A stretch of DNA of 64,000 bases. Origin: Agarophyton chilense. Lineage: Eukaryota > Rhodophyta > Florideophyceae > Gracilariales > Gracilariaceae. The position numbers and the translations under genes were made by a program. The notes under the pieces were generated by a model that saw only the letters and a program-made list of their open reading frames with translations, was not told the DNA's origin and did not search any database. Location: assembly GCA_030374765.1 (NCBI GenBank), contig JARGXX010000031.1, forward strand, positions 186,001 to 250,000, read 5' to 3'. The number at the start of each line of letters is the position of its first letter. The stretch's first letter is position 1. Below are positions 14,921-46,155 of the stretch, piece after piece.

Positions 14921-14938
14921 ACGGAAACAGATGACCTT

Positions 14939-16220
14939 ATGAGTAAGGTCCAATTGGATGATCCCGAGGTAAAGGAGAACGAAGTATACCTATTGGACTT
15001 GGAAACAGTAGTGTTCGATTCGACACCATCTCAGAGGAACGCGATAGCCCTGGAGGAAAAAGAGCTGCTCCCTATAACTATTGAGGAACTCCTACAGGCA
15101 CAGGTCGAAGACGAGTACTACAAGGAAACAGCCCATTTGGAAGGAACCCCTGGATGACTATTCGACTATGGCCGATTTAGACTATTGTGTCGCCGCTCAC
15201 CGCTGGATGGCGTACTTCAACGGGTACTACCAAGTCCACGAAGGGCGTGATTTCTATACTTCGCCCATTTCCCTCCCTTATATGGTCACCCTCGAGGCCG
15301 ACGAATGTACCAGACCCTAAGAAAGTTCTTCTACTGGCCAGTAATGGCGCCGAACCTATGGCAAACGTCACGGAACTGTACACCGTGCGCACAAATCCGA
15401 TGGTCTCGAGCAAACCATCAGGCCATATTGAAGCTCTTCTGCGCCGCAAGTCCGGTGGAATTTGTCGCAATCGATATACTTGGGCCTTTGCCTAAGTCGC
15501 CCCATGGAAAAAGATTTGTCTTCGTCGTAACCGACACGTTTACCAAGCTTACCGGAGCCCTACCCTTAGGGAAGACAACAGCCACGGATGTCGCCACGCC
15601 CTTCTTGTTCCACTGAGTATATCTATATGGCATGCCACTCTACCTCCTTACGGATAACGGCAGCCAGTTTGTATCCAAATTCTTTTCACACGTTTGTGCG
15701 ACCTTAGGTATCAAGCATGTGATCACCACGGCGTACCACCCGCAAACCAATGGACAAGCCGAACGCTTCAACCGCACCCTTCTGGGCCGATTGGCACACT
15801 ACGTGTCGGAGCACCAATTGGACTCGGACGACTACGTCGAGCCACTGGTTTATTCATGCAACACGCAGGTGCACTGTTCCACGGGGACAACGCCTTTCAA
15901 CTTAACGCTAACGAGAGCGCCGCCGTCGATAGCTGTGGACCTTTAAGAGTCTATCATACCCCAGGACATAACCGAAGGGATGCCTTCTACCCAGGCGAAG
16001 CGATACTTGCGGCGACGCATCGACCGCAGTATCCAATCGGCCAGAGCTGTACTAACCAAAGCCCAACTGCGCTACAAGGTCAAATGGGAAAAAGCCTTTT
16101 GGAACACACCGACCTTTGGGAAAGGAGAACTTTTCTACCTGGATTGGCCACTGAAGGACAGTGAAAAACTCAATAACACTACGCGGAAGCTCTTAACCAG
16201 CTCTACGGGACCATAAAAAG
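14939..16220 (+). pseudogene. pol: integrase of element A1 (broken)
   Basis: An acidic linker (14939-15150) leads to a frameshifted H2C2 finger (15290-15400, CTPCAQ) and a catalytic core with EFVAIDILGPLPK (15459-15497), LTDNGSQF (about 15647) and GQAERFNRTL (about 15752). All three catalytic acidic residues are kept. A TGA at 15614-15616 breaks the core and a TAA at about 15944 the tail. The final part continues in another frame to 16216. Confidence 0.85.
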
Positions 16221-17669: not shown

Positions 17670-19331
17670 TCACTGGGGCGGCGCAGGAGTAACCCCGTCG
17701 TTCCGATTGGAACCTGCATGAGCGAAACCGGGACTTAAGTCGCCCGAGGAGCCTACTGGACCACTAGGACCGGCCCCAGGGATCGGAGCACACTTCTTTG
17801 GCGGAGATGCACCTGAAGGACTATTGTCACCATCGGAAGCCTCCCACTCGGTCAAATTTAGACCATGCTGGGCATCCAAGTCGGCAGTACACGTCTGGGA
17901 AATCACTTGGGCATACTGCAGCAGGATGTTGTCCATGGCGGTCTTCAGATCCTGACCCTGTTGGGCAACTGCGGCGTAGCGAGCCGAGCGACGCGCCCAG
18001 GAGCAAGCTTCCCTCAGGACTGTCGCAATGTTCATCGAGGCAGTACTACCAACGTTACGGCAGCCATGACGGAGATGCGAAGCCGCAACCGTGACTGAAG
18101 CGGGGAAGTGTAGCAACGGAGAGGACAGACCGATGTTGACGCCCCCAGTGGACGCTTGAGCAAGTGCATCACCTACAGGACTTTCGTCTTCGACATTAAT
18201 CTCGCTAGGGGGGATGTCCATTTGGGCGATGGGCGGCTCATATGAGAGTTCATCCTGAGAAGCAGTGCCAGAAGGAGCTGTAGGAGGGGAAGCGGTCGGA
18301 AACACAACAGCGGACTCGAGCGGAGGATTAACGCCCCCTATGGGTAGGACGAACGGATCTTCACAGAAGGATTGTTCATCGGACGTACCAGCAGAAAACA
18401 AAGGCGTGGCTTCCACATCAGGCTCGAAGCACAGTGGATCGAAACCAATGGCCTTCGGGTGATACTCGTGCACATGACGCCTCGGGATGTTTGATGGTGG
18501 ATTCCTCAAAGGCTTGGCGGGATAGGCACGACCGTCGTCCGGGCCCTGTGGATGTCGTGGAATCGACGTGAACGAGTCGGTATCGTGGTCATACCAAAGG
18601 AACTCGGTATTCTTGCCCCACTCCATCTGTAGGATATGATCCAAAAAAGCCTCGGTCTTCTCAACGTCGAACTGGGTCCCACGGACGATATTCTGGATGC
18701 CCAGGTTCCTTAGGAAGCGGATCATGATGTCCGGGAGCGGGATTAGACGACGTAGAGGACCGGGTATGTTCTCGTCGTACCATACCCTTTGATCTTCCGA
18801 ACGGACATTACCACGGATTCCGTACTTTGCGGTATCCAGGAAGTCGATAAGGAACATCACGCCGAAATCAAAGAAAAGTCCCTGACAGGACAGCCAAGAC
18901 CTTTGGTCATTGTCATCGCCCATGAGTTGGGACGAATGATATGCCACCATAGACGGCGTGGGAACCAAAAGAAGCGGTGAGACACGCCAATACATGGACC
19001 ATTGGTTCCCATCCACGTGGGGAAGCGGAAGATATAACGGAAAAGGTTTGTCGGTGCTCATGTATTGAAACTCCACCTGGTGCCAATAAAAGAAGAACCC
19101 CAGGGATTGACGCAAACGACCATCAGGCTCATGCATCTCATTCCAACAGACCCTATTGAACATCTAGAACAGGCGTTCATACGGCGCTAGAAAGCACATG
19201 AGCGCCCAGAGGTTGTGACCCGCGGAAGGAAATCTCACATAAGGCGAGATGAAGTCCGTGTAAATGTCGAAAAGCAGTTTGTTCACCCTGCACTGATACT
19301 TGGCTTTCTCCTTGCAGCGGACGTTCGGCAT
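17670..19331 (-). pseudogene. Antisense protein of gypsy element A1, one in-frame stop
   Basis: On the strand opposite to A1 pol a frame stays open for 554 codons from an ATG at 19331, with a single TAG at 19164-19166; the open frame extends upstream to 19466 without an ATG. I do not recognise the family. Its N-terminal half is rich in aromatic residues (LGFFFYWHQVEFQY, VCWNEM). The middle has IPLPDIMIRFL, and at 18546-18593 a motif of the form YDHDTDSFTSIPRHPQ. The C-terminal third is Pro/Ser-rich and probably disordered. The antisense proteins of B and C share these blocks. It has its own AATAAA downstream. No signal peptide, membrane span or catalytic motif is obvious. Confidence 0.6.
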
Positions 19332-19466
19332 GTTTGCTTGGATGAGGGTGCGACAGCGCGTCGCCGAATGTGAAGGAGCGATAAAAACGGTTGAGCCCGG
19401 TAAGCCGCCGGGCCCTGAAGGATCTTGCAGGTGACACGTGTACGGGTCGACCTCAGGTGGACTCAA

Positions 19467-21746: not shown

Positions 21747-22380
21747 TGTCGTACAATCACCTCTGGAGTCTGCTACTGTCTTGTCTCGAGAGCGTGTTGA
21801 CGCTCAACCGTAGGGAGCGTGGAGACGCTCAACCTTAGAAGGTAGACGTGATAAACCTCGATGGTAAAATGGCACCGTGAAAACCCGCAGGGGCAAACGG
21901 CGGGGTGACTAGCCTATACCGTGTAGGTAAACGATGGTAGGCGTCGACGCGCGGGAAAGCCTGTGTGGTAGTTGAGAAAGAATGAACCAAAAGTTATAGT
22001 CGTGACCCAAGTGATGCCTGTCTTTATCAGATTAGGATGGGGGAGGTACAGTTCCCTATATGCAGTGGACTGCACTCTCCAGATCACCCGGGAGGTGCCA
22101 GCAAGGCACGGTCTCTGATCTAGTGTCAGAGAACTGGCCAGCACTGGCTACAATGCCAGGTGGCCACTCCACTACTGTACTAAAATGAAAATAATTACAA
22201 TTAAAATTACTAACAATTACTCAACCAGAAGGTACATGTCAACACTACACGTGGCTGACAACACCTAGATGGTATGTCGCCCGGAGCAGCGTGGCCGATG
22301 ATCCCTCGCATCCATCACCTACAAGGTCAGTGTAGTATATCGACAACCTTAAAGGTCAAACCTTCTGCCACAATACGACA
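21747..22380 (-). repeat. 3' LTR of element B
   Basis: Begins TGTCGTA and ends TACGACA on the given strand, 634 bp. It is the direct-repeat partner of 31900-32508. It lies upstream of the plus-strand antisense gene, so a promoter acting outward from it would be needed to express that gene. Confidence 0.9.
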
Positions 22381-22395: not shown

Positions 22396-23590
22396 GTGAG
22401 ACACGCCCCGTGTCTCCTTCAATCCAACCATATAGGTATAGCCAGCGACAGCGGCCCGGGCATCGGAGTGGTGTCCGCCAGGGGTGGCTCACGGTGCGCG
22501 ACGCGAAATTCTTTCAGTTTCAGAACTGGGTGCCAGTGTCGGTTGGGGAGTGCGAGCGACGACGGCGGCGCACGAATTGAGCAACAACCATTGAGGTAGG
22601 GACTTTTTGGGTTGCTCAACCTTCTTTTTCCTCTTTGGTCCCTGCGCGCGCCGTCCCGCCGGGTAGTTCCCACGGCTCGACAGCCCTTCAAGTATTGCTG
22701 CCCTTCATTGGTGGCATCGCGACCGTAATCGTGCTGTCCGGCTTTTTTTGAAGGTTTCCTGGCTTCTCGACCTTTCAGGTTTCGTCTACCTTTTAAGGAT
22801 TGCTTCGTGGCGCCTGTTGGGCCTGAGCCTGCGTCGATACAACCATTGAGGTATTGGCCTCAGTCCGTGGGGGAAGCTTCCGGTTGTGAGACCTTATTGG
22901 TGTTGAGCGGCCCCGTTGGTAATTGCGCGATCTTTTTCTGGTTTTGCATTCCGGTTCAGCTTCAAGTCTATGACAGGATCGCGACACCTCCAAGTGCGCG
23001 TGCTAACCCATTCGGTGTCACTTCGACGCACCTTGCGCCGCATCGTGGATTCGCCACCGATGCCTCGAAGGGGTGGGTCGTCCCCATAGGCTGCACCAGC
23101 GCTCGAGAGACGTGAGGTGGCGACAACCATTGAGATTGAAGAAGTCGGCGATTCCCAGGGGATTGATACCCATGAAGTTATGCCTTTAAGGTCGGATTGG
23201 TCCCGCTCCACGATACTTGAAAGGTCTGGACCCGCCTGCGCCTGTACGATGGCAACTGTTTCACCTGAAACGTCGATATCGGTACTACCGAAAACGTTGG
23301 ATACGTTTGCCTTCTCCTCGGAACGGACCGAGGAGGCGTAACTTAAGAAGGATGAATACCCGCTGGTGTTCCACGCGGCAGAGGAGGTCGAGTCATAACC
23401 TCGTCCGTCGGTTCGAGCTACTGCCTTCCCAGCTAAGTCAGGTAGCGGCCCATCTCGTGGCCGTAGACGCGGTAGTACTACTAAGAAAGTGAATCGCTCG
23501 GCTTCTCGAACGCCTACCACCATTGGCTCTCGCAGCGTGCCTGTTGCTGTGACACAGTTCTCCCCTAGAACCCCGGCTGACCCATACTAA
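22396..23590 (+). other. Leader or decayed 5' part of the B antisense gene
   Basis: Between the 3' LTR and the long antisense frame lie 1.2 kb with short frames only. One, 23117-23341, is in phase with the later gene but separated by stops at 23339-23341 and 23588-23590. Sequence of this kind could be a 5' untranslated leader, an intron-containing start or a broken N-terminus. It keeps the ACC...GGT hairpins typical of this element. Confidence 0.4.
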
Positions 23591-25024
23591 CACAGTGGTG
23601 GACTTCCTCCGACAACACGAACTAATTGGTCTCACAATCCCGCGTTTGGTGCGGCGAACCGGACCGCGAATCAGTATGGACCTTTTGGTATTGCCTTCGA
23701 CCAGGTGACTCACAGTGACCTGTTGACGCACGATTGGCCTGTGGCGGTGGGTAATTCGTCATTGCCGGCAGCTCTCACTAAATCGCAATTGGATACCTAC
23801 TTGGGTTTGTTCCGTTGGGACTGCAAGCGCGTCTGCTGTGACCCATTGCTTTTGAAGAAACGGGACCAAGACTCTCAACCTCGCCAGGGTCGAATGGAAT
23901 GTTACCAGAGTCGGCAGCGTCATTCACATTTGAGGTATTTCATCCCGCCGATATATCCGAGCGACTTGCCGTATGCGCGCATCGAACCGGAGCTGGATTA
24001 TTACCGTCGATTGGTGGTGCAAGTGTGCCAGTACCCGTCTATTCCGGAAACTTACCTTCCGATTTCTCCCGACTCTGAAATATACGGAGATGGTGTTCAA
24101 CCTGTAGCTCGCATCTTCTTCATACCTTCAAGGGTTGCCCAGGATATTTTCCGATTTGGTTACGAGAACATCGTTGAGAGAACCGATAACACCGTGATGG
24201 ATTTGGACTCGTATCTGGAGCAGAGCAAAAATTACCATTGGAATTCTCATCAAGGTTGGGAGGCTTTCGATCCCGCAACTTGGGAGACTGTGCCTCGCCA
24301 CGCCCAATATTATCCAGGGGAGCCTCCTGTTTATGGAGCTCCCGCGAGCCCCGAACCTTATCACGGTACTGTAGACACACCAGTTGGTCGTTATGCTGGT
24401 CCCTTCCCGTCCGAGCCGTTACCTCAAGGTCGTAAGTTGCCTATCCCTACGGGTGTGACTCCTACTCAACCGAGCTCCTTGCGGGTTGCTGGTCCGGTTC
24501 GACCTCTATTGGCGGGTATTGCTCGTCCTCCGCCTCGATCTATGATGGATTCTCCGGCCGTGGTCGGTTTGCTGTCTCGAATTCGCCAGTCTTGCTTCAC
24601 CAACTCTCAAAGGGCCGGGCCTCCCTCCGTGGTTGCTGCATTAACGCTCCTTGAAGGTTTGCTGTGGCGTCATGCACAATACATGAAGGCGCTGAACCAA
24701 CTTGATGAGTTCCGGAATCAGTTCCAGTTGGATATGTACCAACTGGTTACCCGTCAGGTTGCCAGTCTGGCAAGCATCTCTGCTACTGCGCCACCTGATC
24801 CTTTGACGGATCCCCTTTTAGATGCTAAGTTGAACCCTGCGGTTTTGCAACCTGCTCCGGCGGTTCCCTTCGTTCAACCTCTTTTGGTTTCGACTCCTCT
24901 CCCCAGTGGTAGCGCTACCGCTCCTTCGCTACCTCCTACGTGGATGGCTCCTAGCATTTCTGCAAGTTTTCCTGCGTGGGTATTCAATAACACGGGTCTT
25001 TCTACTCCCGGACTCGGGGGCTAG
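23591..25024 (+). CDS. Antisense protein of gypsy element B, unknown family
   Basis: An open frame of 478 codons on the strand opposite to pol, ending TAG at 25022-25024. No ATG lies near its 5' end (the first in frame is at 23894), so the true start is missing or upstream. I do not recognise the fold. Blocks shared with the antisense protein of element C are RWDCKRV (C: SWDWRNRI), YFIP (C: YFVP), FFIPSRV (C: WYVPPRV) and a Trp followed by an aromatic-Asp motif; that motif, FDPATWETVPRHAQ at 24266-24307, matches YDHDTDSFTSIPRHPQ of element A. The C-terminal 200 residues are Pro-rich. It ends 236 bases before the end of pol, so the two genes converge without overlapping. Confidence 0.6.
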   Translation, partial: HSGGLPPTTRTNWSHNPAFGAANRTANQYGPFGIAFDQVTHSDLLTHDWPVAVGNSSLPAALTKSQLDTYLGLFRWDCKRVCCDPLLLKKRDQDSQPRQGRMECYQSRQRHSHLRYFIPPIYPSDLPYARIEPELDYYRRLVVQVCQYPSIPETYLPISPDSEIYGDGVQPVARIFFIPSRVAQDIFRFGYENIVERTDNTVMDLDSYLEQSKNYHWNSHQGWEAFDPATWETVPRHAQYYPGEPPVYGAPASPEPYHGTVDTPVGRYAGPFPSEPLPQGRKLPIPTGVTPTQPSSLRVAGPVRPLLAGIARPPPRSMMDSPAVVGLLSRIRQSCFTNSQRAGPPSVVAALTLLEGLLWRHAQYMKALNQLDEFRNQFQLDMYQLVTRQVASLASISATAPPDPLTDPLLDAKLNPAVLQPAPAVPFVQPLLVSTPLPSGSATAPSLPPTWMAPSISASFPAWVFNNTGLSTPGLGG

Positions 25025-25259: not shown

Positions 25260-27632
25260 TTAGCCGTTTGCAGGCATCGGCTCCTTGCGACGGCGCCAAT
25301 ACCTGATACGTAAGTGTGGGGGTATTGTGGATGGGGGTTCGAGGGTCACCCCTTCTGGGCCCAAGCCGTACCACCTTACGGTGTACTTCAGACCATTGTA
25401 CGTTTGCGTGTGGCCTAACAGGCGGTCAACGGGAAATTCCTCTGAGGTTTGGTTCTGATCTTTCGGGGGAACGCTAGCTCGAAGGTTCATATGATCCGAG
25501 TTGGGAGCTTCGTGTGTGGGAGCCGGGTCGGGAGCTCCCGCTGTTACCTTTTGAGGTTCCATTTCCGTCTCTGTTAGAGGGTTGTAATCCGTATCATCCC
25601 GGTGTAGTTCATCATTCACCTCAATTGGGGTGGGGTCCTCGGAGGGTCGAGTGCGCAGAGCTACCTCTCTGGGCTCTCGGGCTGAGGTGCATGCCTCAAT
25701 GCGATGTTGAACCGTTTCAGGTGCTACTGTAATACGGTCAATTGATATCGTATTCGGTATTCCATCTTGGTCAACCGTAACGGTGTGGTCTGATGCGTTC
25801 AATACCTTATAAGGTCCCATTGATTTGGGTAAAAGCTTCGAATTGATATCTCTGTCAATAGCTTCATCGTCCGCTTCATCACCCGGTCTTCTACCTGAAG
25901 CTGGGTTATCTATGTAGACATAGTGTCCCGAAGATACAGAGACCACTTTTGTTACCCTACGGTCGTAGTCGGCCTTGTACCGCTTCTGGGCGGCAGTGAG
26001 GCGGCTCTCTGCATGTTTGAGAGCCCTCCTCAACCTCACAAGGGTATTTCGCTTAACTTGGGCAGCGGTCAGTGCGCCAGCTGCAGTGCTAGTGGTATGA
26101 CCTCCCTGCACTACAATACCTGGGGGGTGTCGCGAAAGAACCAAATCAAAGAGAGTGGTCTGCGTTGACCGGTGTACCTGAAGGTTATAGAAATAGGTGA
26201 GCGGTTGCACCAGCTCATGCCACCCAGTTTGGTGCTCTTCCGTATAGTGTCGTAGCCTTGATACCAATGTGTGGTTAAAGCGCTCGACCTGTCCGTTTGT
26301 CTACTGGTGGTAGGCAGTCGTGAAATAGTGCTTGATACCCAAGAGGTTACAGATTGTTTTGAAGAACTTCGATGCCAGGTTTGAACCATTATTGGTCAGT
26401 AGGTACAGTGGTGCACCATACGGGTAGACCCAACTGTTAAGGAACGCGATTTCCAGCGTTGTTGACTTCGTATTCTTTAAAGGTATCAATCTCGTGAGCT
26501 TCGAGAACCTGTCGGTGATCACTAGAATGTGTTGATACCCATTCTTTGTCTTGGGAAGTGGTCCTAGAAGGTCTATCGCAACAAACTCCAGTGGACCCGC
26601 GTCTGTAAACAGGTTGAGGTATTTTCGATGCTTTCGAATACCACCGCAGGTACAAACACAGGATTCGCATTGACCTACAAAGTTATAGACATCATGGGCC
26701 ATATGAGGCCAGTAGAACTGTTGCCTCAAGGTGTAGCACATCCTGGTGGCAACGGGGTGCCTCGATAGTCGCGGGTAGTGCGTGAGATACAAGACTCTCG
26801 GGCACAGCGCCTTCGGAACCATCTTTTGATGGCTACCATCCGAGGTTGACCTTCTCACGATGTACCCATTGTGGTCCACATTGAACGGTGAACCTTTGAA
26901 ACCAATTTGGTCAGCCAGGCTTTTGCAGTGCGCATCCTGGGCCTGTTCTCGTAGGAATACCTCTCGGGTTACGGGCATGACGTTCGTTTCCTCTAGGGTC
27001 AGTATCTGCGTTGCCATGTCGGTGTTCCGAAAGGCACCTTCTTCAGGGATGTCCCAACATCCTTCTAGGTGTTCGCCGGTACCATTTTCGTTTCATGACA
27101 CCAAAAAGCGAAGGATGTCATCGTCCACAGGTTCTGTCTCTAGCCCTGAGGTGTTTAAGCGTGACGTAGCATCAGCTATGTTGTGCTTGATACCTGGACG
27201 GTACTGTACGTCGTGTTCAAACTTCGACAGTCTCAACCTCCAACGGGCAAGTCTACCCAACGCATCTGCGAGTCCGAGGATCCACCTTAAGGCGTCGTGG
27301 TCGGTACGCAACGTAAAGCGCTTACCATACAGGTAGGGACGGAGCATTAACATGCTCCACACTTTTGCTAGACATTCCTTCTCGGTTACCCTGTAGTTTT
27401 GCTCCGCCTCATTCATAGCGCGGCTCCATTACCCTATAGGTAATTTGTCTCCGTTATGCTGCTCCTGCATGAGACAACAACCAATTTGGGCATGAGATGC
27501 ATACGTATCCAGCGTGTACGGTAGACCTTTTTTCGGTATTGCTAAGATTGGCGGCGACAACAGCGCTCGTTTCAATTCCTCAAAGGTATCCATTTTGTCG
27601 TTCGATAGATTTTTCAAACCGTTTAGGTTCAC
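25260..27632 (-). pseudogene. pol of element B: RNase H, integrase, chromodomain
   Basis: In element orientation the RNase H keeps LDTYASHAQIGCCL (a Tyr where the second Asp of DTDAS is usual), VTEKECLAKVWS and RTDHDALRW. It is broken by a TAA at 27429-27431 just before WSRAM, where the family has GYWSR, and by a stop at 27093. The integrase has a finger (CESCVCTC), EFVAIDLLGPLPKT, LTNNGSNLAS (Asp of the DNG motif changed to Asn) and GQVERFN, with a TAG between YHQ and TNG at about 26300. The tail holds MGPYKVLNASDHTVTV and a chromodomain (VDRLLGHTQTYNGLKYTVRW). With a catalytic Asp lost and stops present it cannot integrate. Confidence 0.85.
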
Positions 27633-29542
27633 CTTTCTGGAGCTTCTTGTTGAGGGGAGCCGCTATTTTCGCGAATCCCTTCACGAAGCGACGATAGACG
27701 TTGCATGAACTTATAAAGGATTGTACGTCTATCTGGGATCGTGGCACCTTGACCTCTTTTACGGCTCTAATGTTGCTCGGCGCAACCTCTAGGGTACCAG
27801 GGCCTTTGATGTGGCCCAGGGTTTCAACCGTTCTGGTAAAGAAAAAGCATTTGCGTAGCTTCAGCGTCACCCCCGCCTCAGCTAGGAGGTTTAGTACGGT
27901 GGGCATGTGAGAAAAATGCTCTCCTACCAATCTGGAGTATATGATTACATCATCGATGTATGCCAAGGCAGTTGTCCACTTAACCTTCGAAAGGATGATG
28001 TCCAGCGCCCTTCGAAAGGTGGCTGGAGCATTGCAACCCGTATGGCATCCGCGTGAAGCGAAACAAACTTGCATGGCACGTGAAAGTCGTTTTGTCTCGA
28101 TCTTCCTCACCTCTAGATACCTGCCAATAACCAAAATTGGCATCCAACGTGGTAAATGTCTGCGCATCTCCCAAGGAGTCGATGCACTCATCCATTCTAG
28201 GAATCTGGTACGAATCCCTGACGGTCAAGCTATTGAGCCTTCTGTAGTCCACACAGAACCTCATACGGTTATCTCCTTTCCTCTGAACCAGAACCACGGG
28301 ACTAGCCCAGTCTGAGTTGGCTGGCTCAATTTCACCTTCTTGGAGCATTCGCTCCACTTCTTTGACTTCTACTTCTCTCTCCTTCGGACCTGCACGGTAT
28401 GGTTGGTGATAAATCGGCTTTGAGTCAAGGAGGAGCTCGATGCGATGCTGTGTAGCTTTAATTTGGCCCAGATGGCCTGACCACATGGTTTCGAACTCCT
28501 CCAGAAGGTCGAGAATACGGCCCCGCAGTTCGCCGTTTTCTTCACCGATCTGGACTGTATCTTGCAATTGCCTCTCACGGTCAGGTTCCTCTTCTTTGTC
28601 CACCGATGCCTTATCGGTTAGCTTTTCTTCCAAGTTGGTATTTATCGATACCATTGTGGTTGTGGACGCATTTGCGCACCCCCCTTCCTTATCGAAGGCG
28701 ACCTCGCCGAGATCAGTGTGAGCTACGGTGAATATCCCTTGCGGTGTCGGTAGTGCGATGCCAACATTGGTATTTTTCGGCAACTTCACGTCATGACTGC
28801 TGAAGTTGCTGAGACACACTTTAAAGGGTTGATTTGGTATGTTGTCGACAATCTCGTTGGCCATCAAGGTGAGGTGTCGATGTGCTAACCTCGGATGGTT
28901 TTGTAGTATGACCAGCCCAGGGGTTGCACACGACACCGTTACCATTATTTGGTGTATTGGCGGGATAACAACTTGTTTGGTAATGCGCATTTTGTTGGAG
29001 ACCGTTTCGGTGGATATCCTCTTCTTCGGTTTGACGAACCATCCCCGTTTGGGTTCTGTATTACGTAAAATGGCAATTCGTCCTCCGTGACGTAGGGCGA
29101 CGGTGTGGGAACCAGGAAGGATTGCTTTGACATGTCTGTCGATGAAGTTCGTACTTATTAGGCAGTCTGTTGAGAAACGGTCGACAACAAAGAATTGCAG
29201 TCTTGCCTTGAGGTGTCCGAGCTGCACCACAGTGGTGAGCATACCTCGAAGGTTTAGTGGGCGCTTATTTGCATCCACCAGGGGGTTGTTGTCGGGAGGT
29301 CGGCTCAAGTTCCGAAGTACCGCCTCAGGTATGACCCGGGAGTTAAGCACGTTTGGGCCGGCCCCCGTATCCAACAAGCGGTTGACCGGAACCGCAAGGC
29401 GACCGGAGAAACACATTGAAGCACGTACTTTATAGTTGTTGTACTTCATATGACAAACCGGAACTGGTTGTGACGTGTTCTCTTCCACCTTCAAGGTTCT
29501 GGGTATCGATTGGCCTTCCAATTGCAGGTTGGGTTCGGCCAT
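27580..29542 (-). pseudogene. pol of element B: protease and reverse transcriptase
   Basis: The frame can start at an ATG at 29542 that overlaps the gag stop (TAATG) or at 29554. Protease: LLDTGAGPNVLN. RT: VDYRRLNSLTVRDSYQIPRMDECI, FTTLDANFGYW, FTRMPYGL; then about two bases are lost near 28036 and reading resumes one frame over with NAPATFRRALDI and the intact catalytic box YIDDVIIYS. A second frame change near 27.6 kb leads to RNase H. Family-typical order and motifs make the assignment certain; the frameshifts make it a pseudogene. Confidence 0.88.
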
Positions 29543-31899: not shown

Positions 31900-32508
31900 T
31901 GTCGTACAATCACCTCTGGGGTATGCTACTGTCTTGTCTCGGGAGCGTGGTGACGCTCATACTTAGAAGGTAGACGTAATAAACCTCGATGGTAACAGGG
32001 CACCGTGAAAACCCGCAGGGGCAAACGGCGGGGCAACTAGCCTATACCGTGTAGGTGAACGATGGTAGGCGTCAACGCGCGGTAAGACCTATGTGGTAGT
32101 TGAGAAAGAATGAACCAAAAGTTATAGTCGTGACCCAAGTGATGCCTGTCCTTATCAGATTAGGATGGGGGAGGTGCAGTTCCCTATATGCAGTGGACTG
32201 CACTCTCCAGATCACCCGGGAGGTGCCAGCAAGGCACGGTCTCTGACCTAGTGTCAGAGACCTGGCCAGCACTGGCTACAGTGCCAGGTGGCCACTACAC
32301 TACTGTATTAAAATAAATATAATTACAATTACAATTAATAACAAATACTCAACCAGAAGGTACATGTCAACACTACACGTGGCTGACAACACCTAGATGG
32401 TATGTCGCCCGGAGCGGCGCTGCCGCTGATCCCTCGAATTAATCACCTACAAGGTCAGTGTAGTATATCGACAACCTCAAAGGTCAAACCTTCTGCCACT
32501 ATACGACA
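31900..32508 (-). repeat. 5' LTR of element B
   Basis: 609 bp, TGTCGTA to TACGACA, the direct-repeat partner of 21747-22380 and the inverted relative of the solo LTR 3454-4087. The right flank TGAAG is the target duplication. Confidence 0.9.
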
Positions 32509-34502: not shown

Positions 34503-35185
34503 ATGGACACCGACAGAGCCCCCAAGATCCCTGATCTCGACATAACCAACTATTCTTTATGGTTTCTAGCACTCAAAACTTATGCAGCAACCATAGACGC
34601 ACTCGAACATTTACAAAGCAACCCTCAACCTCCAACCGACGAAACAGCCAACAAAACATTCAAAATCAAGAAGAATCGTCAGCTCTCAGCCGTGCTCAGC
34701 AGCGTCTCGATAGACATTCTGGGCTTACTTCTGATACCAGGAGAAGAACCCTCTACCCACGACCTAATTCAAAGCATCATCAAGCACATCACACAAACCA
34801 CCAAGAAGGATCACCAATTCCTCAAAACAGAGGCGGAAAGCATCGAACTGGAAGACATTACCAAGTTCGAAACTTACTTCAAAGATCACCTCGAACTTTG
34901 CAAAAAAATGGTCGCTGCAAGATATCCGAACATAGCGGAAGAGGACACAAATATCGACTTCCTTATATATGGACTGAAGAAGCACGCCACACTCACACCA
35001 ATACTAGGTCACATACTTGCGAACAAACCCGCCACAGTTCGGAACGTCATTTGAATCTTCAAGTCACTCAGCAACCCATATCCAACGTTGCAAGCTTCAG
35101 TTCCACCGCAGCCAACATCAAGTTTCACCGGGGACTATAACACACCACGTCCGAACGACAGACGCCCAGCATACCCCGTACGACG
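34503..35185 (+). pseudogene. gag of the copia element, 5' part
   Basis: ATG at 34503. The product starts MDTDRAPKIPDL and has NYSLWFLALKTYAA, the hallmark N-terminal block of copia Gag, then KNRQLSAVLSSV and a helical capsid region. A TGA at 35052-35054 interrupts it, but the same frame stays open (PQPTSSFTGDYN, RPAYPVRR) until element C cuts in at 35186 after CGACG. The rest of gag resumes at 45476. Confidence 0.75.
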
Positions 35186-36049
35186 TGAAGAGCAACGTCC
35201 TCCAGGGAGGTTTTTGGGGACTTAAGTTTTTTCCGGAGCCTCCGGCGTGCAACCTCGTTATGAGTAGGAGTAATCTGTCTTCACGGCGATGGCCGGAACG
35301 CCGGTGATGCACCGGCGGGACCGGGTGCCATACACGTGGCCGCAGCGCCCGCACGACACGTGGCCGCCAGATTGGCCCCTTTGTTAGACGGACATTTAGC
35401 TATTTAGGATAGACTTTATTTATTCTATTCTACGGTGACTACAGTACTTAGGCCGCCGGCCTCGCGGCCGCCGGTCCAGTAAAGTCTCCCCAACAAGGGT
35501 GATCTTGGTCTTCCAGATCTTGGCTCTGGGTCGAACCGCCTGCGCGGATATACAACTCCTTACGGAGGGATTTCCCGTGGTGTACGGCTTCCCAACCCCC
35601 TTGGACGTTCGAGCAGCCTTCGTGTGTTGGGTATCTATTCCCACTTTCGTGGTTCCGCCCGTGTATACGGATTGCTACACCCGGCAGTGCTAGCTATTCC
35701 CGAGTCCCCTCTTGCGACTCGTGGTCAACCTCGCCCTCTTGCCTCAGTTCCCATTTTCCTTTCCTTTTCCTCCCCTTCATTGGGCAATTCCCGCTCTTGC
35801 GGCTCGCACTGACACCTGTCGTGTTCGCCACTCTCGTGGGTTTTGCCTCCTCAGAGGATACGCAAACACCGCTTCGGCGGATATTCTCGGCTTCTTTCAG
35901 CCTCCCTGCGCCCGTCGCGACGGTTCGGCTCTGGCTTACACCCGGCATTGCGCGCCAATCCCTGGGAGGGCTCTACCGCGCCGGTTACCTCGTGAGAGGA
36001 AGATCCGGACGTCTTCGTAGGTTTTCCCCCTTGGGGGCATTGTCCTACA
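35186..36049 (+). repeat. 5' LTR of element C
   Basis: TGAAGAGCAACG to TTGTCCTACA. The last 200 bases hold seven short perfect hairpins, at 35846-35857, 35869-35880 (CCGC-TTCG-GCGG), 35912-35923, 35960-35970, 35975-35985, 35988-35999 and 36026-36037. Confidence 0.93.
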
Positions 36050-36052
36050 AAT

Positions 36053-36070: not shown

Positions 36071-36172
36071 GTCAAGATCGCTTGTGTCCTCTCTGAGGTT
36101 GTTTTCCGTTCACCGGGTTTTCTCCGGTCTCACCGGTTTGCTTTCTATTCTTCTGTCGAGACGGTGTGGCCA

Positions 36173-37187: not shown

Positions 37188-37325
37188 TCCTCCTACCGGT
37201 CACCGGCACTTAAGACCCGCAGCCCGATTCCGGGTTAACGACCGTCGCAACGGTGGTTTCTCCGCCTGCGCGCTTGGTCGACCAACCGCGGAGGCGGAGA
37301 AACCAACCCCTTGCGACGGTCGTGG
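36930..37325 (+). repeat. Duplicated LTR and gag pieces with a palindrome
   Basis: 36930-37187 repeats the LTR bases around 35765-36020. 37193-37280 repeats gag bases 36294-36380 (ACCGGTCACCGGCACT). Then 37288-37325 is the inverted copy of 37239-37273: ACGACCGTCGCAA pairs with TTGCGACGGTCGT and GGTTTCTCCGCCT with AGGCGGAGAAACC. Two forward jumps and one strand turn are what template switching by reverse transcriptase would leave. This patch replaces the missing 3' half of gag. Confidence 0.8.
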
Positions 37326-37367
37326 ATACGGATTAGAAATAACTGGGTCCCGGATAGAGTTTTGGTA

Positions 37368-40300
37368 ATGGCCAAGCGTAACTACAAGGTTTACGCTGAC
37401 CTTGGTCTGCACACGCAGTTTATGGTGAGATATCTCACTGAACTGGATACAGGTGCTGGGCCGAACTTTATTGTGGAATCGGTTTTACCCCCGCCATTGC
37501 GGTCAGTCATCCGTTCTGAAACGGTACCCGACGTCTCAGACGCCAATAACAACCCGTTGAAAACGGTTGGTGTGATCGACCTGGTCGTCAGGCTAGGGCG
37601 GATGGTGGTTAAACTAACTTTTATTGTGTGCCGCTCGCTGGCCGCGCCAGTTATACTGGGATGTGACTACCGCGACAGGTTTGTCGACGCCATCCGCCCA
37701 CGCCTTAAGCAGGTGGAACCTGAGGACGGATCGACCGTCCCCATTGTTCGTCAACCGCTGAAGCGGGCATCGAGGAAACACGTTCCTCTACCTGCTGAGC
37801 AGGAACCCACACCGGCGAACCGCGATTCTACGAAGCTACGCGTTGCCTCTTCAGTCACCATACCCCCGGAGAGCCAGGTTATGGTTTCAGTCAATTCCCG
37901 TCAACACGGTTTTCGGGTTGTTCAGCCCTTGCCCTCGTTGTACGAGAAATTTCAGTTAACCGTTGCGAACGGAATCGTGCAAGTCACGCCGAATTCCCCT
38001 TTCAGGATGTTGGTTGCCAATCTGGGAAAGGCTCCCCAGACGCTGGCAAAGAACCAAGTCATTGGGTCTGTGACGCCGCACCCGCTCGCGATGCTCCCTA
38101 CAAATGTGACGGCTGCCGAAGTACTCGGAATAACTCCCTCTACCGAGGATGGTCTCCCGGTATCCGGTGCAGAAACCTCCGGGGAGGCACAGCAGTTGGC
38201 GCTCGATAAAACCGTCAAGACGGATGCATTTCCGACCTCGTCGGTTCCCACACCTGACAGCAGGGCACAGCCTACGAGCTACGATAAGATAGACCCGATC
38301 AAGGCCCTCGAGGACCTGGACCTGAGTCATGTACCGGTCTCACACCGGGACCGCTTACGCGGAATGCTACGCGAGTTTACCACAATGTGGGACAGCTCAC
38401 TGGGTGAGATCAATACAACCGAACATCGGATAGACTTGCTACCGGACGCACGTCCGGTTGCACAACCCCCTTACAGGGCGGGACCGAAAGCTCGGGAGGA
38501 GGAAGAATTTCAGGTGGACAAGATGCTCCGTTCTGGAGTCATCGAGCCCGCCCAATCTCCTTGGGCTTCACCGGTGGTGCTGGCCCTCAAGGCTGACGGC
38601 ACGTGGCGGTTTTGCGTTGACTACCGCCGCCTCAATGCCGTCACCGTGAGGGACACCTACCCGATTCCGCGCATGGACGAGTGTAAAGACTTGCTCGGGG
38701 ACGCTACCGTGTTTACGGCTCTGGATGCTACCTGGGGCTACTGGCAAGTCCCAGTCCGGGAAGAGGACCGAGACAAAACCGCGTTTGTTTGCCACTCGGG
38801 TTCCTACCGCTTCAAGCGGATGCCGTTTGGTTTAACCAATGCACCGGCCACCTTTCAAAGGGCCATAGGCATACTGATGTCGCGTTTCAAGTGGCGCACG
38901 TGCCTCGTCTACTTGGACGACATCATTGTCTTTTCCAGAAACCTGGACGATCACCTGACCCACGTGCGGGACGTGATGACCGTACTGCGAGACGCAGGAA
39001 TAACCCTCAAGTTGAGGAAGTGCGAGTTCTTCACCGAAACGGTGAAGTATCTCGGGCACGTCATCCGTCCAGGACGGTTAATGATCGAACAAGTTCATAT
39101 CAAGTCCCTCTGTGAGGCGAAGGAGCCCCGTACTCAAACGGAGCTCCGATCCTTTTTAGGTCTTGTCAACGTCTATCGACGGTTTATACCGAGTTTCTCG
39201 GATATCGCCGCTCCGCTAAACGCGCTACTGCGGAAGGGCCAGCCATCGAAGCTTGCGCCATTTACCACCGATCAGTCGGAATCTTTTCGCCTCTTGATTA
39301 AGGCAGTTACGACAGCTCCCATCCCATCCTTGCCCAAACCTGGGCTTCCCTACTCCATCGACACCGACGCCAGCGACCACCAGGTGAGCCGCGCACTGTT
39401 CCAAACCACCGCCAAGCGGGAACGGAAACCAATTGGCTATTGGTCCCGCACGCTGAACGTCCACGAGCGCAACTACTCGGTCTCCGAGAAAGAGTGCCTC
39501 GCAGTGGTCTGGGCGCTATCCACTCTGCGCCCATACCTCATGGGCGTTCATTTAACCGTATACAAGGACCATGCCTCGATAGGGTGGCTGCTGAACATCG
39601 AAGATCCTTCTGGCCGCTTAATGCGGTGGCGCCTTCGCTTAGCGGAATTCGACTTCGAGGTCGTCTACAAAAAGGGTGTCCAGAACACCCAAGCAGACGC
39701 CCTCTCTCGATTACCTACGACAGGTGAAGCACTTGCCGACCCGGAGGTCGACGAGATCCCGTGCTTTACCTTGGAAGGGGAAACACCGACGGAGTCGGAT
39801 TGGCCCGAAACCGGGGAAGACACCATGGAAATGGATGAGCTACTCGCAGCGCGCGAGAATGAAACACCCGTACCCGGGAGCTTTGTACCCATCTCCACCG
39901 AGGAGATGATCCGAGAACAGTTCGGCGACCCGTTCTGCACGCGCATACGGGCCCGCCTAAACGGTGGAGAGGACCTCCCGTTCGAGGTAAACGACATCGG
40001 TTACCTCGTCCGGACGGTGGACCACCGATCCCAGATCGTGGTCACCCACACCCTGCAAACCAGGGTGCTCCACCTCTCACACTACCCGACCCTCGGGGGA
40101 CACTCCGGTGGAAGAAAACTTTATCTAACCCTGCGAAGGGACTTTTATTGGCCCGCTATGGCGGTTGATTGCTACGCTACGGTGCAGTTCTGCACTCAAT
40201 GCGCAAAGAACCGGGTAAAACTCCGGAAGCACTCCAAACGGATGAAGCTTTTCCCCGCAAGGGCGCCCCTCGAGTTTGTTGCAATCGACATTCTCGGGCC

Positions 40301-40808
40301 TCTACTCAAGACGCGCAAGGGAAATAAGTTCCTCTTGGTTATCACTGACCGCTTTTCGAAGCTGGTGCGCACCGTACCTTTACGGAAGATCACCGCTTTC
40401 ACGGTTGCAAACGCCTTCGTTACGCACTGGGCGTTCGTTTATGGCCCTCCGATAGAGGTTCTATCTGATAACGGTAAGCAGCTCGCCTCTAAGTTCTACC
40501 AGGACGTCTGCCGCATCCTCGACGTCAAGAACCTGTTTACTACCACCTACCACCTGCAAACAAACGGGCAGGTGGAACGCTTCAACCGCACCCTACTCGC
40601 GTCGCTACGCTCCTACATATCCGATCACCCAATGACGTGGGACATTTATTCTGATGCTATCACCTACGCCTACAACACGCAGGTTCACCGGACAAGCAGT
40701 CTGACTCCCTTCGAGCTTGTGCTCTCCAGGACATCCCCGCCAGTGGCGGTCGAACCCAAACACAGGGTCAACTCTTTCCCATCCGTGGGTCAATACCGCC
40801 TCAAGTGA
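37368..40808 (+). CDS. pol polyprotein of element C (protease, RT, RNase H, integrase)
   Basis: The start is the ATG at 37368, which overlaps a TAA of the gag frame (TAATGGCC). The frame is open for 1146 codons up to a TGA at 40806-40808. Protease LDTGAGPNF (Asp27). RT with VDYRRLNAVTVRDTYPIPRM, FTALDATWGYW and the intact YLDD box (Asp517, Asp518). RNase H with SIDTDAS (Asp665, Asp667), SEKECLAVVWAL, and YKDH where TDH is usual. Integrase with finger CTQCAK and catalytic Asp974 (AIDILG), Asp1034 (LSDNG) and Glu1070 (QVERFN); the 59- and 35-residue spacings fit DDE integrases. It looks functional apart from the early stop that removes the tail and chromodomain. CCG/CGG hairpins run through the gene. 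Confidence 0.92.
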   Translation: MAKRNYKVYADLGLHTQFMVRYLTELDTGAGPNFIVESVLPPPLRSVIRSETVPDVSDANNNPLKTVGVIDLVVRLGRMVVKLTFIVCRSLAAPVILGCDYRDRFVDAIRPRLKQVEPEDGSTVPIVRQPLKRASRKHVPLPAEQEPTPANRDSTKLRVASSVTIPPESQVMVSVNSRQHGFRVVQPLPSLYEKFQLTVANGIVQVTPNSPFRMLVANLGKAPQTLAKNQVIGSVTPHPLAMLPTNVTAAEVLGITPSTEDGLPVSGAETSGEAQQLALDKTVKTDAFPTSSVPTPDSRAQPTSYDKIDPIKALEDLDLSHVPVSHRDRLRGMLREFTTMWDSSLGEINTTEHRIDLLPDARPVAQPPYRAGPKAREEEEFQVDKMLRSGVIEPAQSPWASPVVLALKADGTWRFCVDYRRLNAVTVRDTYPIPRMDECKDLLGDATVFTALDATWGYWQVPVREEDRDKTAFVCHSGSYRFKRMPFGLTNAPATFQRAIGILMSRFKWRTCLVYLDDIIVFSRNLDDHLTHVRDVMTVLRDAGITLKLRKCEFFTETVKYLGHVIRPGRLMIEQVHIKSLCEAKEPRTQTELRSFLGLVNVYRRFIPSFSDIAAPLNALLRKGQPSKLAPFTTDQSESFRLLIKAVTTAPIPSLPKPGLPYSIDTDASDHQVSRALFQTTAKRERKPIGYWSRTLNVHERNYSVSEKECLAVVWALSTLRPYLMGVHLTVYKDHASIGWLLNIEDPSGRLMRWRLRLAEFDFEVVYKKGVQNTQADALSRLPTTGEALADPEVDEIPCFTLEGETPTESDWPETGEDTMEMDELLAARENETPVPGSFVPISTEEMIREQFGDPFCTRIRARLNGGEDLPFEVNDIGYLVRTVDHRSQIVVTHTLQTRVLHLSHYPTLGGHSGGRKLYLTLRRDFYWPAMAVDCYATVQFCTQCAKNRVKLRKHSKRMKLFPARAPLEFVAIDILGPLLKTRKGNKFLLVITDRFSKLVRTVPLRKITAFTVANAFVTHWAFVYGPPIEVLSDNGKQLASKFYQDVCRILDVKNLFTTTYHLQTNGQVERFNRTLLASLRSYISDHPMTWDIYSDAITYAYNTQVHRTSSLTPFELVLSRTSPPVAVEPKHRVNSFPSVGQYRLK

Positions 40809-42455: not shown

Positions 42456-43151
42456 ACCGTGAACACGGAATGGAATGGCTGATGGCGCCTCGCGCCATCT
42501 CCGTCCATGCCCCAACGCGGGGAAGGACGCAACCGCTCACGCTATCCCAACGTCGTTGGTGGTCGTGCCAGTTACCTGGTCCGCGCGCGAAGCGCCCACC
42601 GTTAAACACCGAACTCTCAGTTAGGCTGGTTCTCTGCAACGCCGGAACCCCGGTAGAAGGCCGGTACCCCGGAAAGAAAGAAGCGGACTTGGGAAAGAGC
42701 GTCGGAAAGGCGACCCTCTTCTTTTTTTTTCTCACTACCGGCAAGGGCGCCCTAGTGGCGCCGCTCTACATTCTACCGGAAGCTCCAGTCATTCCTCCGC
42801 ACGAGGTGGACCCCCGCCCAGGCGGTTGGCTAAGGCATCCCGCATGGCGGCCACATCACCCGAGATCTCGGAAGGGCGAAGCCCCACCTCCCGAAGGAAG
42901 CGCGCGATGACCTCGCCCCGCTCCGTGCCAGCGGCAGTTGCGGGCGGGCCCGCCACCGATGGAGTCGGATAGGAATCCGTTCGCACGGCATCAGCAGCCC
43001 CGGATGGAGCCGCACCACCGTATTCAACGGACTCCTCACCGGCCTCGCCGGACTCGTCATCCTCCATCGGAGCGTAACCCGGATCCCCCGGTTCGTTGTC
43101 GACCATCGGGTCACCATCCGCATAGCCGCGGTAATAGTCGCTCGAGTCGAC
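42456..43151. other. Spacer between pol and the antisense gene of element C
   Basis: Frames on both strands are short or GC-driven and match nothing. A poly-T run (42722-42730) lies here. The stop codon of the antisense gene (43152) faces the end of pol across this spacer. The minus strand stays partly open (42789-43106, acidic), which may be an old extension of the antisense gene. Confidence 0.4.
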
Positions 43152-44441
43152 CTACCCTCGCGGGTGGTCGGCCGGGACTTCACGCGGCGCATGCCGGTTG
43201 GCTTCCGCTTCCTCGCGGCTGATCGCGTGGTACTCCCTGGGGTCGAAGTAGATGAAATCCTCCGCTAGCGCGGTATTCCTCCCGAGTCCGGGGCCAGACC
43301 CGCGACGCGGTTGAATGCGTTGGGAGTTCTCCAGCGGGACTTCATCCCACTGGACCCCCTCCACAAAATCGAGGAGGCCCAGCATCTCTTCTTCGTTCGC
43401 CTCGCCCCCGAGGGGGATGCGCATGTCCAAACGGCGGATCGCAGCCCGCACACGCGGTGGCACGTACCACAATCGGTATTGGTCGTACGCATCAGCGAGG
43501 ATAAAAGCCGCAGTGCGGACGGCCCATTCGCTTACCACGACGGACCACCACCCCGACTGGGGATCGTTCAAGAACGACGACCCTACATAGGTCAAGACTG
43601 GGGGCAGCTCAATGAAGCAACCCCAGCACGCCTCCAAGGAGAACCACCAGTCTGGGAGACTGACGTACCGACCACGTCGGTGAGCAGGCGCTATGCGCTC
43701 AATCTCCGTGTTCTGGTACGGTACGAAATACCCGGTCCGGGCCCGCCAACGCCGCTCATCGCGGATGAAGTTCTGAAGGAAGTTCGAGCGCGACTGCCGC
43801 GGATGGTAGCGGAACTCTGCCCGAAGAATCGGTCGTGCCCAGCAAAGGGCTTCTTGCCGAGCGATCGGTGTGCCCCTCCAAGCGAGGGCTTCCAATCCGT
43901 TAAGACGGTCACAGTACGACATTTCCCCGCGAGTGCGGTAAACTTGGACGTCGAATTCGACCTTTGGCGGTATTGGGAACTCGAAAGGCGCCCGATGGTG
44001 CCTGAGATAAGCGATCCGCACAAGCGCGGCCTGAGCCTCCGCAGAGGATTCACCGCGTCGGCGGAGTATGTGGTGTACCGGGATGGCGATGCGATTACGC
44101 CAATCCCAGGACATGGTCACCACGCCGGGCAGGTCGCCCGGGAGCATCTCCGAATTATCGGTGTAGGATTGGATCAAATCCTCGTCGCGGACAGCCGATC
44201 GGTGAAACCAAGGCGCATACCGCAACATCGCGGAGCCATGACGAGTTCTCGGATTTGCACCCACAAGGGCGTCGTAGGTCGGCCACTGCGGTGGGTCCGC
44301 CTGTCCGCGAAAGCGGGCGCCAATACGGCGGTCTTCGTACGCAAGGTTGGTAACATCCCCAGGGTGGGGCGCGGACCGGAAGCCAGTGGAAACGCCAAGG
44401 GCGGGAGTCACGGATGTGTTTTGACGGTCGGGGTTGGACAT
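43152..44441 (-). CDS. Antisense protein of gypsy element C, unknown family
   Basis: ATG at 44441 to a stop at 43152, 429 residues, on the strand opposite to pol; the frame is open further upstream into the 3' LTR, without an ATG. A Ser/Thr/Pro-rich N-terminus is followed by an aromatic- and Arg-rich globular-looking region: SWDWRNRIAIP (residues 111-121), YFVPYQN (238), LPDWWFSLEACWGCFIELP (262-280), GWWSVVVSEWAVRTAAFILA (297-316), LWYVPPRVRAAIRRL (324-338), then VQWDE and IYFDPREYHAISRE (397-410). Matching blocks occur in B and, less clearly, in A. No catalytic motif, signal peptide or clear membrane span is seen; the 297-316 stretch is hydrophobic but contains charges. The frame is fully intact in this young element. 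I cannot name its function. Confidence 0.7.
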   Translation of the reverse strand: MSNPDRQNTSVTPALGVSTGFRSAPHPGDVTNLAYEDRRIGARFRGQADPPQWPTYDALVGANPRTRHGSAMLRYAPWFHRSAVRDEDLIQSYTDNSEMLPGDLPGVVTMSWDWRNRIAIPVHHILRRRGESSAEAQAALVRIAYLRHHRAPFEFPIPPKVEFDVQVYRTRGEMSYCDRLNGLEALAWRGTPIARQEALCWARPILRAEFRYHPRQSRSNFLQNFIRDERRWRARTGYFVPYQNTEIERIAPAHRRGRYVSLPDWWFSLEACWGCFIELPPVLTYVGSSFLNDPQSGWWSVVVSEWAVRTAAFILADAYDQYRLWYVPPRVRAAIRRLDMRIPLGGEANEEEMLGLLDFVEGVQWDEVPLENSQRIQPRRGSGPGLGRNTALAEDFIYFDPREYHAISREEAEANRHAPREVPADHPRG

Positions 44442-44598
44442 GGTGCGTGTTGGTGTGCTGTGGTTGGAATCGGATGCGGAGAGCGTGCGTGGGATCCTTG
44501 GTGAAGGTGTGTTGGTTTCCGGAGACCCGGTGTCGGACGCGCTCTTATCATGACGAGCTGCCGTGCCGACTTCCTCTTCGAGGTGTTCGCCCTGTCTT

Positions 44599-44608
44599 AA
44601 GGGGGGGG
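44599..44608 (+). promoter_or_regulatory. Polypurine tract of element C
   Basis: AAGGGGGGGG followed by TTA ends at the first base of the 3' LTR. It is placed as expected for the plus-strand primer of an LTR element. Confidence 0.65.
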
Positions 44609-44611
44609 TTA

Positions 44612-45475
44612 TGAAGAGCAACGTCCTCCAGGGAGGTTTTTGGGGACTTAAGTTTTTTCCGGAGCCTCCGGCGTGCAACCTCGTTATGTGTAGGAGTAAT
44701 CAGTTTTCACGGCGATGGCCGGAACGCCGGTGATGCACCGGCAGGACCGGGTGCCATACACGTGGCCGCAGTGCCCGCGCGACACGTGGCCGCCAGATTG
44801 GCCCCTTTGTTAGACGGACATTTAGATATTTAGGATAGACTTTATTTATTCTATTCTACGGTGACTACAGTACTTAGGCCGCCGGCCTCGCGGCCGCCGG
44901 TCCAGTAAAGTCTCCCCAACAAGGGTAATCTTGGTCTTCCAGATCTTGGCTCTGGGTCGAACTGCCTGCGCGGATATACAACTCCTTATGGAGGGATTTC
45001 CCGTGGTGCACGGCTTCCCAACCCCCTTGGACGTTCGAGCAGCCTTCGTGTGTTGGGTATCTATTCCCACTTTCGTGGTTCCGCCCGTGTATACGGTTTG
45101 CTACACCCGGCAGTGCCGGCTATTACCGAGTCCCCTCTTGCGTCCCGTGGTCATCCTCGCCCTCTTGCCTCAGTTCCCATTTTCCTTTCCTTTTCCTCCC
45201 CTTCATTGGGCAATTCCCGCTCTTGCGGCTCGCACTGATATCTGTCGTGCTCGCCACTCTCGTGGGTTTTGCCTCCTCAGAGGATACGCAAGCACCGCTT
45301 CGGCGGATATTCTCGGCTTCTTTCAGCCTCCCTGCGCCCGTCGCGACGGTTCGGCTCCGGCTTACACCCGGCATTGCGCGCCGATCCCTGGGAGGGCTCT
45401 ACCGCGCCTGTTACCTCGTGAGAGGAAGATCCGGACGTCTTCGTAGGTTTTCCCCCTTGAGGGCATTGTCCTACA
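44612..45475 (+). repeat. 3' LTR of element C
   Basis: 864 bp, near-identical to 35186-36049. Read in reverse, its first 70 bases extend the open frame of the antisense gene, so a transcript for that gene would start in or before this LTR. Confidence 0.93.
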
Positions 45476-46155
45476 CGACGCATACCACTTAAGCAACTCT
45501 GTTCCCACCATAAATCCCTCGGCATACGATGCAACCACACCGACGCACAATTCCGTGATCAGTCTCACCCCAAATTTCAAAGGCACAACACACAGGCCAA
45601 CTACATGCAGCTACCAGATATGGCTTAGTGGCCTTAAGCGCCAAACAAGGCTATGGCATCGACACGAGGCAAAACCCACCCGCGATACTAGCAACGGCAC
45701 CTTGGCGCCACAATCTATACACCTTGAACGCCAAACACATAAACAAGGCTCAAGCCAGCACGGCTAGAGCGATTCCCATGACCAGAACCAAGCAAAATAG
45801 CACACATCGCATTACCGAACACGTTATCCACAAACACAACCCACCACGGCCCACAACACACACAGCAGCTTCCGAACTACCCCCACCGCTTACACAGGGT
45901 AAAGCACAAAAGATCGACTCCAAGTCGCTAAGAACACTATCCAATCCCGTCCTACCAAGACGAAAATCCAACATAAAACTGACCATGCACGACTGGCACA
46001 TCCGCCTCAACCATGCCCATCCGCGAAAACGGGCGCACACAGCCAACCACCGTCTCGTCCCCAACATGCCCACCAATTTACCTACCGACACCAGACTCAC
46101 ATGCAGCGCATGTGCACATGCCAAATGCCAACGAGCACCTCATCCCCGCAAGTAA
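45476..46155 (+). pseudogene. Copia gag end and pre-integrase domain
   Basis: Continues the copia gag interrupted at 35185; the first codons read IPLKQLCSHHKSLGIRCNHT, resembling a degenerate Gag zinc knuckle. From 45628 the frame encodes GYGIDTRQN, NLYTLNAKHI and HDWHIRLNHAHPRKR, then LTCSACAHAKCQR, the GAG-pre-integrase HHCC finger (H...H...CSAC) that starts copia integrase. No D-T/S-G protease motif lies between, so the protease is deleted. A TAA ends this frame at 46153-46155. Confidence 0.7.

Follow-up and report, generated by a model that had tools for sequence, protein, structure and literature searches.

Antisense extra genes of LTR retrotransposons are already known from several plant families and from one fungal element. 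In plant Ty3/gypsy elements, they are described as the aORF-3R class, which includes ORF4 of Retand (TRP28, PF04195), gene23 of Grande, and the corresponding genes of RIRE2 and PvRetro13; these genes lie in antisense orientation between pol and the 3′ LTR, and occur in most copies and across species (PMC7264820, PMC11963269). Nuclear localization has been reported for the antisense protein of Grande (PMC7264820, PMC11963269). Among retroviruses, the antisense genes HBZ and APH-2 of HTLV-1 and HTLV-2 encode nuclear regulators, and the HTLV antisense promoter is located in the 3′ LTR (PMC7264820, PMC11963269). CERV, an extra protein of the LTR retrotransposon Cer1 of C. elegans, is modeled to act in the nuclear export of genomic RNA (PMC10309623). 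Among titles and opening abstract lines of the open-licence PMC literature, we found no account of antisense genes in the LTR elements of red algae.

Here, we analyzed a 64,000-nucleotide window (G000:C31:186001-250000) of the genome of the red alga Agarophyton chilense, which was also searched as a whole (79.8 Mb, 135 contigs). We propose that an ancestral red-algal Ty3/gypsy element may have gained, once, a reverse-oriented protein gene between pol and the 3′ LTR, and that this gene would then have been inherited together with pol through at least four lineages (A to D), and probably five. An antisense transcript with its start in the 3′ LTR or next to it would encode the protein, whose possible nuclear role is that of an accessory factor regulating the element that carries it, through transcription, chromatin state, or genomic-RNA export. 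We give this explanation as a whole, from a single gain and descent with pol to an antisense-expressed nuclear accessory regulator, a probability of about 0.7. That the gene is a real, selected accessory protein gene is very highly probable; the nuclear regulatory role, which is argued by analogy, is put forward tentatively.

Antisense genes in elements A, B, and C

An initial annotation had reported antisense frames opposite pol in three gypsy elements of the window. All three are present, and they lie between pol and the 3′ LTR in the elements for which both LTRs were mapped (B and C; Table 1). The frames given for C (43152-44441, minus strand) and B (23591-25024, plus strand) are indeed open, that given for A (19331-17670) contains an internal stop, and all three window copies are damaged. 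Longer antisense frames of A, B, and C were found elsewhere in the genome, and some of these were used in the comparisons below.

Table 1. Mapped features of elements A, B, and C (window positions)
Feature	Position	Strand	Remarks
Target-site duplication, 5′ side of C	35181..35185		CGACG
5′ LTR of C	35186..36049	+	TG...CA, 864 bp; 97.0% identical to 3′ LTR
pol of C	37239..40808	+	RT, RNase H, integrase
Antisense gene of C	42789..44564	-	Extent as in other copies; 591 codons + stop
Open sense frame over antisense gene of C	43269..44504	+	411 aa; without constraint; no Pfam match
Polypurine tract-like run	44599..44608	+	Just 5′ of 3′ LTR of C; seen in the sequence, function putative
3′ LTR of C	44612..45475	+	864 bp
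Target-site duplication, 3′ side of C	45476..45480		CGACG
3′ LTR of B	21747..22380	-
Antisense gene of B	23438..25024	+	Window copy with stop just before 23591 and internal deletion of ~129 residues near 24070
pol of B	26097..29479	-	Strand opposite to antisense gene of B
5′ LTR of B	31900..32508	-	90% identical to 3′ copy
pol remnant of A	14141..15940	+	Part matching residues 593-1172 of C pol
Antisense gene of A	17670..19370	-	Homology reaches 19370; open 17670-19163 in window copy

The window copy of C is without the start codon of other copies, and its in-frame stop also comes earlier; the annotated frame is the sole ATG-to-stop stretch of the gene here, within a stop-to-stop frame that spans 43152-44699 (515 aa). 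Among 30 fetched copies (window copy included), an ATG equivalent to window position 44564 is present in 24, about 48 bp from the inside edge of the 3′ LTR. The frame is open from 44564 to the stop at 42789 in 21 of the 30, and ATG and open frame occur together in 16. Over 42792-44561, the window gene shares 95% amino acid identity with copy L008. The gag region of C (36049-37239) is rearranged in the window: between pol and the 5′ LTR there are a fragment of the 3′ LTR (36926-37194) and a 99-bp piece that is present twice (36294-36392 and 37194-37292). A CCHC knuckle was not detected in the window copy. A Ty1/copia reverse transcriptase (RVT_2, E = 1.5e-19) lies directly behind C at 46759-47676. 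Three further copies of C (L019, L020, and L021; G000:C68:3136804-3159484) have a constant spacing of 9197 bp and equal scores, which suggests a tandem array of the element.

The residues deleted from the window copy of B, relative to copy L043, belong to the most conserved block of the protein; longer B frames occur in copies L033, L043, and L052. A third B LTR copy, possibly a solo LTR, lies in opposite orientation at 3454-4088. The window also holds an inverted pair of about 670 bp with 90% identity (16787-17453 and 4196-4864), of which the former looks like an insertion between the antisense gene and pol of A, as it is absent from the A copy in L061.

Homology among the antisense proteins

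Homology links the antisense proteins of A, B, and C. The initial annotation had named profile similarity as a test, and hhalign comparisons based on longer copies were significant for all three pairs: C and B matched with E = 5.7e-12 (probability 97.5%), B and A with E = 1.7e-12 (97.7%), and C and A with E = 1.1e-6 (90.9%), or 2.3e-7 (93.5%) when lineage D (see below) was added on the C side. In blastp searches with the window copies, A matched B at 4e-6 and B matched C at 0.017, and the A-C pair was not significant. When all six frames of one element were compared with all six of another, the antisense pair was the best of 36 for C and B (2.7e-11; next best 5.6e-5) and for B and A (1.5e-16; next best 6.4e-4). 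None of the 36 pairs was significant for C and A, the similarity of which appears with profiles only.

Most of the shared blocks that had been proposed for the three proteins also fall into common columns of our alignment A2, namely WD.[KR], [WF][YF][VI]P[PS]RV (RLIPLPDI in A), a Trp about 35 residues farther on, and an FDP-like motif. The proposed pairing of YF[IV]P does not stand: YFIPP of B aligns with an IPP of C near residue 193, and not with YFVPY of C. Across eight sequences, which represent lineages A to E and three relatives, 41 columns have at least 87% identity.

Additional lineages and copies

The initial annotation had recommended a search for further copies, and many were found in the genome itself, including two additional lineages (D and E). 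A search with the distant relative P0006 added 68 places, among which a 611-aa frame recurs, and one with P0007 gave 107 places, which are partly D copies and many of which carry a 640-aa frame. In lineage D (copy L080), the antisense protein is 33-34% identical to that of C, and the antisense region has no blastn match to the window at 1e-5 despite this likeness. Over the part compared, the pol of L080 shares 57.5% identity with C pol, and it carries a Chromo domain at its end (E = 4.7e-10); the corresponding match in B pol was below the cut-off (E = 0.059), and no Chromo domain was found in C pol. Frame comparison of C and D gave 4.7e-83 for the antisense-antisense pair versus 7.6e-29 for the best sense pair. 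The antisense pair of D and B reached 1.1e-4, and D and A were not significant and not detectable without profiles. An antisense gene from the 640-aa-frame group (L084), which shares 36% identity with C and 35% with D, represents lineage E. The window additionally contains the interrupted pol of a D-like element (9849-13144), which is 67% identical to D where the two were compared. Its DNA match to D stops near 13.5 kb, and the adjoining sequence yielded no D-like antisense gene.

The genomic context of pol was mapped for lineages A to D, and E is known from its antisense gene alone. Antisense gene and pol are arranged tail-to-tail in A, B, C, and D, and the trees of pol and of the antisense protein both place A with B and C with D. 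This agreement fits a single acquisition followed by joint descent. Annotations of three gracilarioid red algae list related proteins as hypothetical or unnamed; the species are Gracilariopsis chorda, Gracilaria domingensis, and Agarophyton chilense, the first and last of which belong to the Gracilariaceae. The protein searches were word-based, scored at most 7997 candidates each, and covered the proteins rather than the genomic setting of the matches (element or not).

Retention of the gene in element C was assessed with a DNA query (42300-42900) that overlaps the last part of the gene only, and for which 40 places of 176 candidates were scored. The antisense region is kept in 39 of these 40 places; 25 overlap the list of protein matches, and 14 of the 15 others keep it at 94-97% identity. 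Among 98 scored protein matches to C (of 1823 candidates), 67 are stop-free over 429 codons. These prevalence counts are lower bounds. As in the aORF-3R class, the gene is thus found in most copies and is conserved at the protein level.

Purifying selection on the antisense frame

To measure constraint, observed changes were reassigned at random among sites that match in base and CpG state, and the observed ratio of nonsynonymous to synonymous changes was divided by that of this null (hereafter N/S). The C set comprised 44 copies, of which 30 came from a ranking by protein similarity and 14 from a DNA-based selection of 15, the misaligned copy L070 (61% identity) having been dropped; removal of near-identical copies left 41. 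For B, 29 fetched copies were used, excluding the window copy, and for A, the window copy and two stop-free copies were compared in three pairs.

In A, B, and C, purifying selection acts on the antisense frame. For C, N/S was 0.66 for variants present in at least two copies (z 2.4; changes at codon positions 42/28/65) and 0.54 for those in at least three (z 2.0); variants in exactly two copies (0.78, z 1.1) and in at least five (0.57, z 1.6) were not significant alone. In B, it was 0.51 for variants in at least three copies (z 4.1; codon positions 44/35/74), 0.83 for those in at least two (z 1.7), and 0.94 for private variants (z 0.9). The A pairs gave 0.52-0.65 (z 3.4-7.4). The older, shared changes therefore depart from the value near 1 that the initial annotation had named as evidence against the gene. 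Private variants of C gave 0.98, and neutral decay after insertion predicts values close to 1 for private variants, as seen in both C and B. The same annotation had proposed that the protein was kept under selection while the elements diverged; homology and N/S together support this, in more lineages than the three then recognized (D and, as an antisense gene without mapped pol context, E).

No constraint was seen in the antisense frame of D, for which four stop-free copies gave six pairwise values of 0.84-1.11. Any two D copies differ by a similar amount (5-6%), and we read these copies as a recent burst in which neutral decay alone is visible.

Several properties of the copy sets bear on these values. 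The A, D, and pairwise B copies were chosen to be stop-free, and the C and B sets start from the best protein matches, and both choices may push N/S down to some degree. A comparison of private with shared variants inside a single set has no obvious dependence on how the copies were chosen. A first dN/dS estimate for C (0.44; the 30 copies closest to the window copy in protein similarity, 27 after removal of near-identical ones) was biased downward by this ranking and was replaced by the set that adds 14 DNA-picked copies. In the first DNA-picked run for C, the signal over all variants was absent, swamped by private decay and the misaligned L070; shared variants pointed in the same direction (z 1.4 with 15 copies and z 2.4 with 24). 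Pairwise values for B (0.62-0.95 in 15 non-independent pairs of six stop-free copies) were likewise superseded by the 29-copy set. Private stop changes in C numbered 14, against 20.8 under the null, and retention of the open frame is by itself weak evidence for selection. Frame 1 of the pol strand in C also reached 0.65, yet it has 12-17 stops per copy, and we read its value as a mirror of the antisense frame.

Protein features

The antisense protein is about 560-700 aa long, of which about 260 residues make up a conserved core. Its tail is acidic and Pro-rich and, in C, D, and the relatives, finishes in a short conserved segment. The N-terminus is also disordered-looking, and the composition suggests disordered ends that flank the core. 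Among six proteins scanned, basic runs that resemble nuclear localization signals occur in A (PPKKRTRL) and in P0006 (PPRKRVVVQRR), and no such motif was found in C, B, P0004, or P0007. From these runs in two of six proteins, the position of the gene, and the analogy with Grande, Retand, HBZ, and CERV, we infer the expression, nuclear action, and target of the protein, which probably aids the survival of these elements.

Database searches placed the protein in no described family. Pfam gave no family for the members scanned (the 11 proteins of alignment A2, and D) and, specifically, no bZIP family for the A2 members; NCBIfam gave none for nine proteins. The best PHROGs match (0.064) assigned no family, and sequence searches of the PDB returned no relative (best E 0.84 in one search and 1.2 in another). 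No match was found in viral contigs, and none of 15 pattern matches in prokaryote genome contigs was confirmed. At the nucleotide level, Rfam gave no match in 35000-46000, and a scan for bacterial-type promoters gave nothing useful.

Alternative explanations

The conservation could stem from a gene on the sense strand, such as an env-like one, of which the antisense frame would be the mirror. Sense frames are open over the same bases in C and D (411 and 271 aa; the latter at L080:925-1737), and N/S of the D sense frame is slightly below 1 (0.68-0.93), although not significantly so (z at most 1.8). In C, however, the sense frame reached 1.18 for variants in at least two copies, and, as had been noted from the window, C alone among the three elements has a long one (in the single copy of A and of B that was examined, sense frames reach 156 aa at most). 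Moreover, neither sense frame matches Pfam, and every significant antisense pair outperforms all sense pairs, for C and D by 54 orders of magnitude in E-value. The mirror reading is thus already largely refuted, and we regard it as extremely improbable. It could also be the antisense transcript rather than a protein that matters, by pairing with genomic RNA and controlling copy number, with the open frame being incidental. Antisense noncoding transcripts are described from other retroelements (PMC7264820), and the D copies, where protein constraint was not seen, would agree with such a role. A purely noncoding function nonetheless predicts equal conservation of synonymous and nonsynonymous sites, and this does not hold for shared variants: the antisense frame has reduced N/S and a third-position bias in A, B, and the shared variants of C. 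Amino acid likeness also persists where the DNA no longer aligns, as between L080 and C (33% as protein). A role of the transcript alone is already disfavored by these results and very unlikely.

Two further readings accept a protein and give it another task. It may be a captured host gene, or an env- or movement-like protein for passage between cells or species. Cells of red algae of this class are joined by pit connections, the gene sits at the location of env, and the protein of B has one hydrophobic stretch (mean Kyte-Doolittle 2.09). Against this, env-like third ORFs lie on the gag-pol strand and encode transmembrane segments; the gene studied here is on the opposite strand, and five of the six proteins are without a strongly hydrophobic segment. 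The named matches among the at most 7997 candidates scored in each word-based protein search are, furthermore, all hypothetical or unnamed, with no characterized host protein among them, and we consider this origin or function unlikely. The size (about 600 aa) and age of the protein, the unassigned fold of its core, and the fact that Pfam identified no capsid domain on the sense strand would suit a structural or genome-packaging protein in an ambisense layout. That reading is quite unlikely in view of B and the D-like element, where a CCHC knuckle and a DTGA protease motif lie 5′ of RT on the sense strand, in the usual gag-pol order. Since these components already exist on the sense strand, we interpret the antisense gene as an extra gene, in line with the accessory regulator proposed here.

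Comparison with known antisense systems

The red-algal antisense family belongs to the aORF-3R structural class and not to the TRP28 family of Retand. Its placement between pol and the 3′ LTR is established in B and C, where both LTRs and pol were mapped, and is indicated in A and D, with unmapped 3′ LTRs, by pol on the opposite strand. PF04195 was found in none of the 11 A2 proteins (A, B, C, and relatives) at E up to 5 and not in D at E up to 1, and its best score across the genome was 20.2 bits against a cut-off of 26.2. Retand and similar elements are known from flowering plants, whereas the family described here and its named relatives are red-algal; Retand is also described as a non-chromovirus, whereas lineage D is a chromodomain element. 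Grande, RIRE2, and PvRetro13 are likened to the red-algal genes by description and not by sequence. The same holds for Boty of Botrytis, which carries an antisense aORF outside plants, in a fungal host (PMC7264820), and for HBZ and APH-2, which are retroviral and have an antisense promoter described in the 3′ LTR, where that of the red-algal genes is putative. CERV, also compared by description, is produced from a spliced Cer1 mRNA, and the abstract of its report does not use the word "antisense" (PMC10309623).

These elements might represent an ambisense class of retrotransposons not described before, whose antisense regulatory protein has diverged in step with pol across five or more red-algal gypsy/chromovirus lineages and, in the manner of HBZ or of Rev/CERV, works on its own element inside the nucleus, helping to explain the high copy number in an 80-Mb genome; we regard this wider proposal as doubtful. 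The family is spread over deeply diverged lineages with measurable purifying selection, and a protein family with relatives detected in red algae only fills the same slot as the antisense genes of plant and fungal elements. If this slot was filled by different families in several kingdoms, placing a gene on the opposite strand beside the 3′ LTR would be a repeated solution to a need that these elements share.
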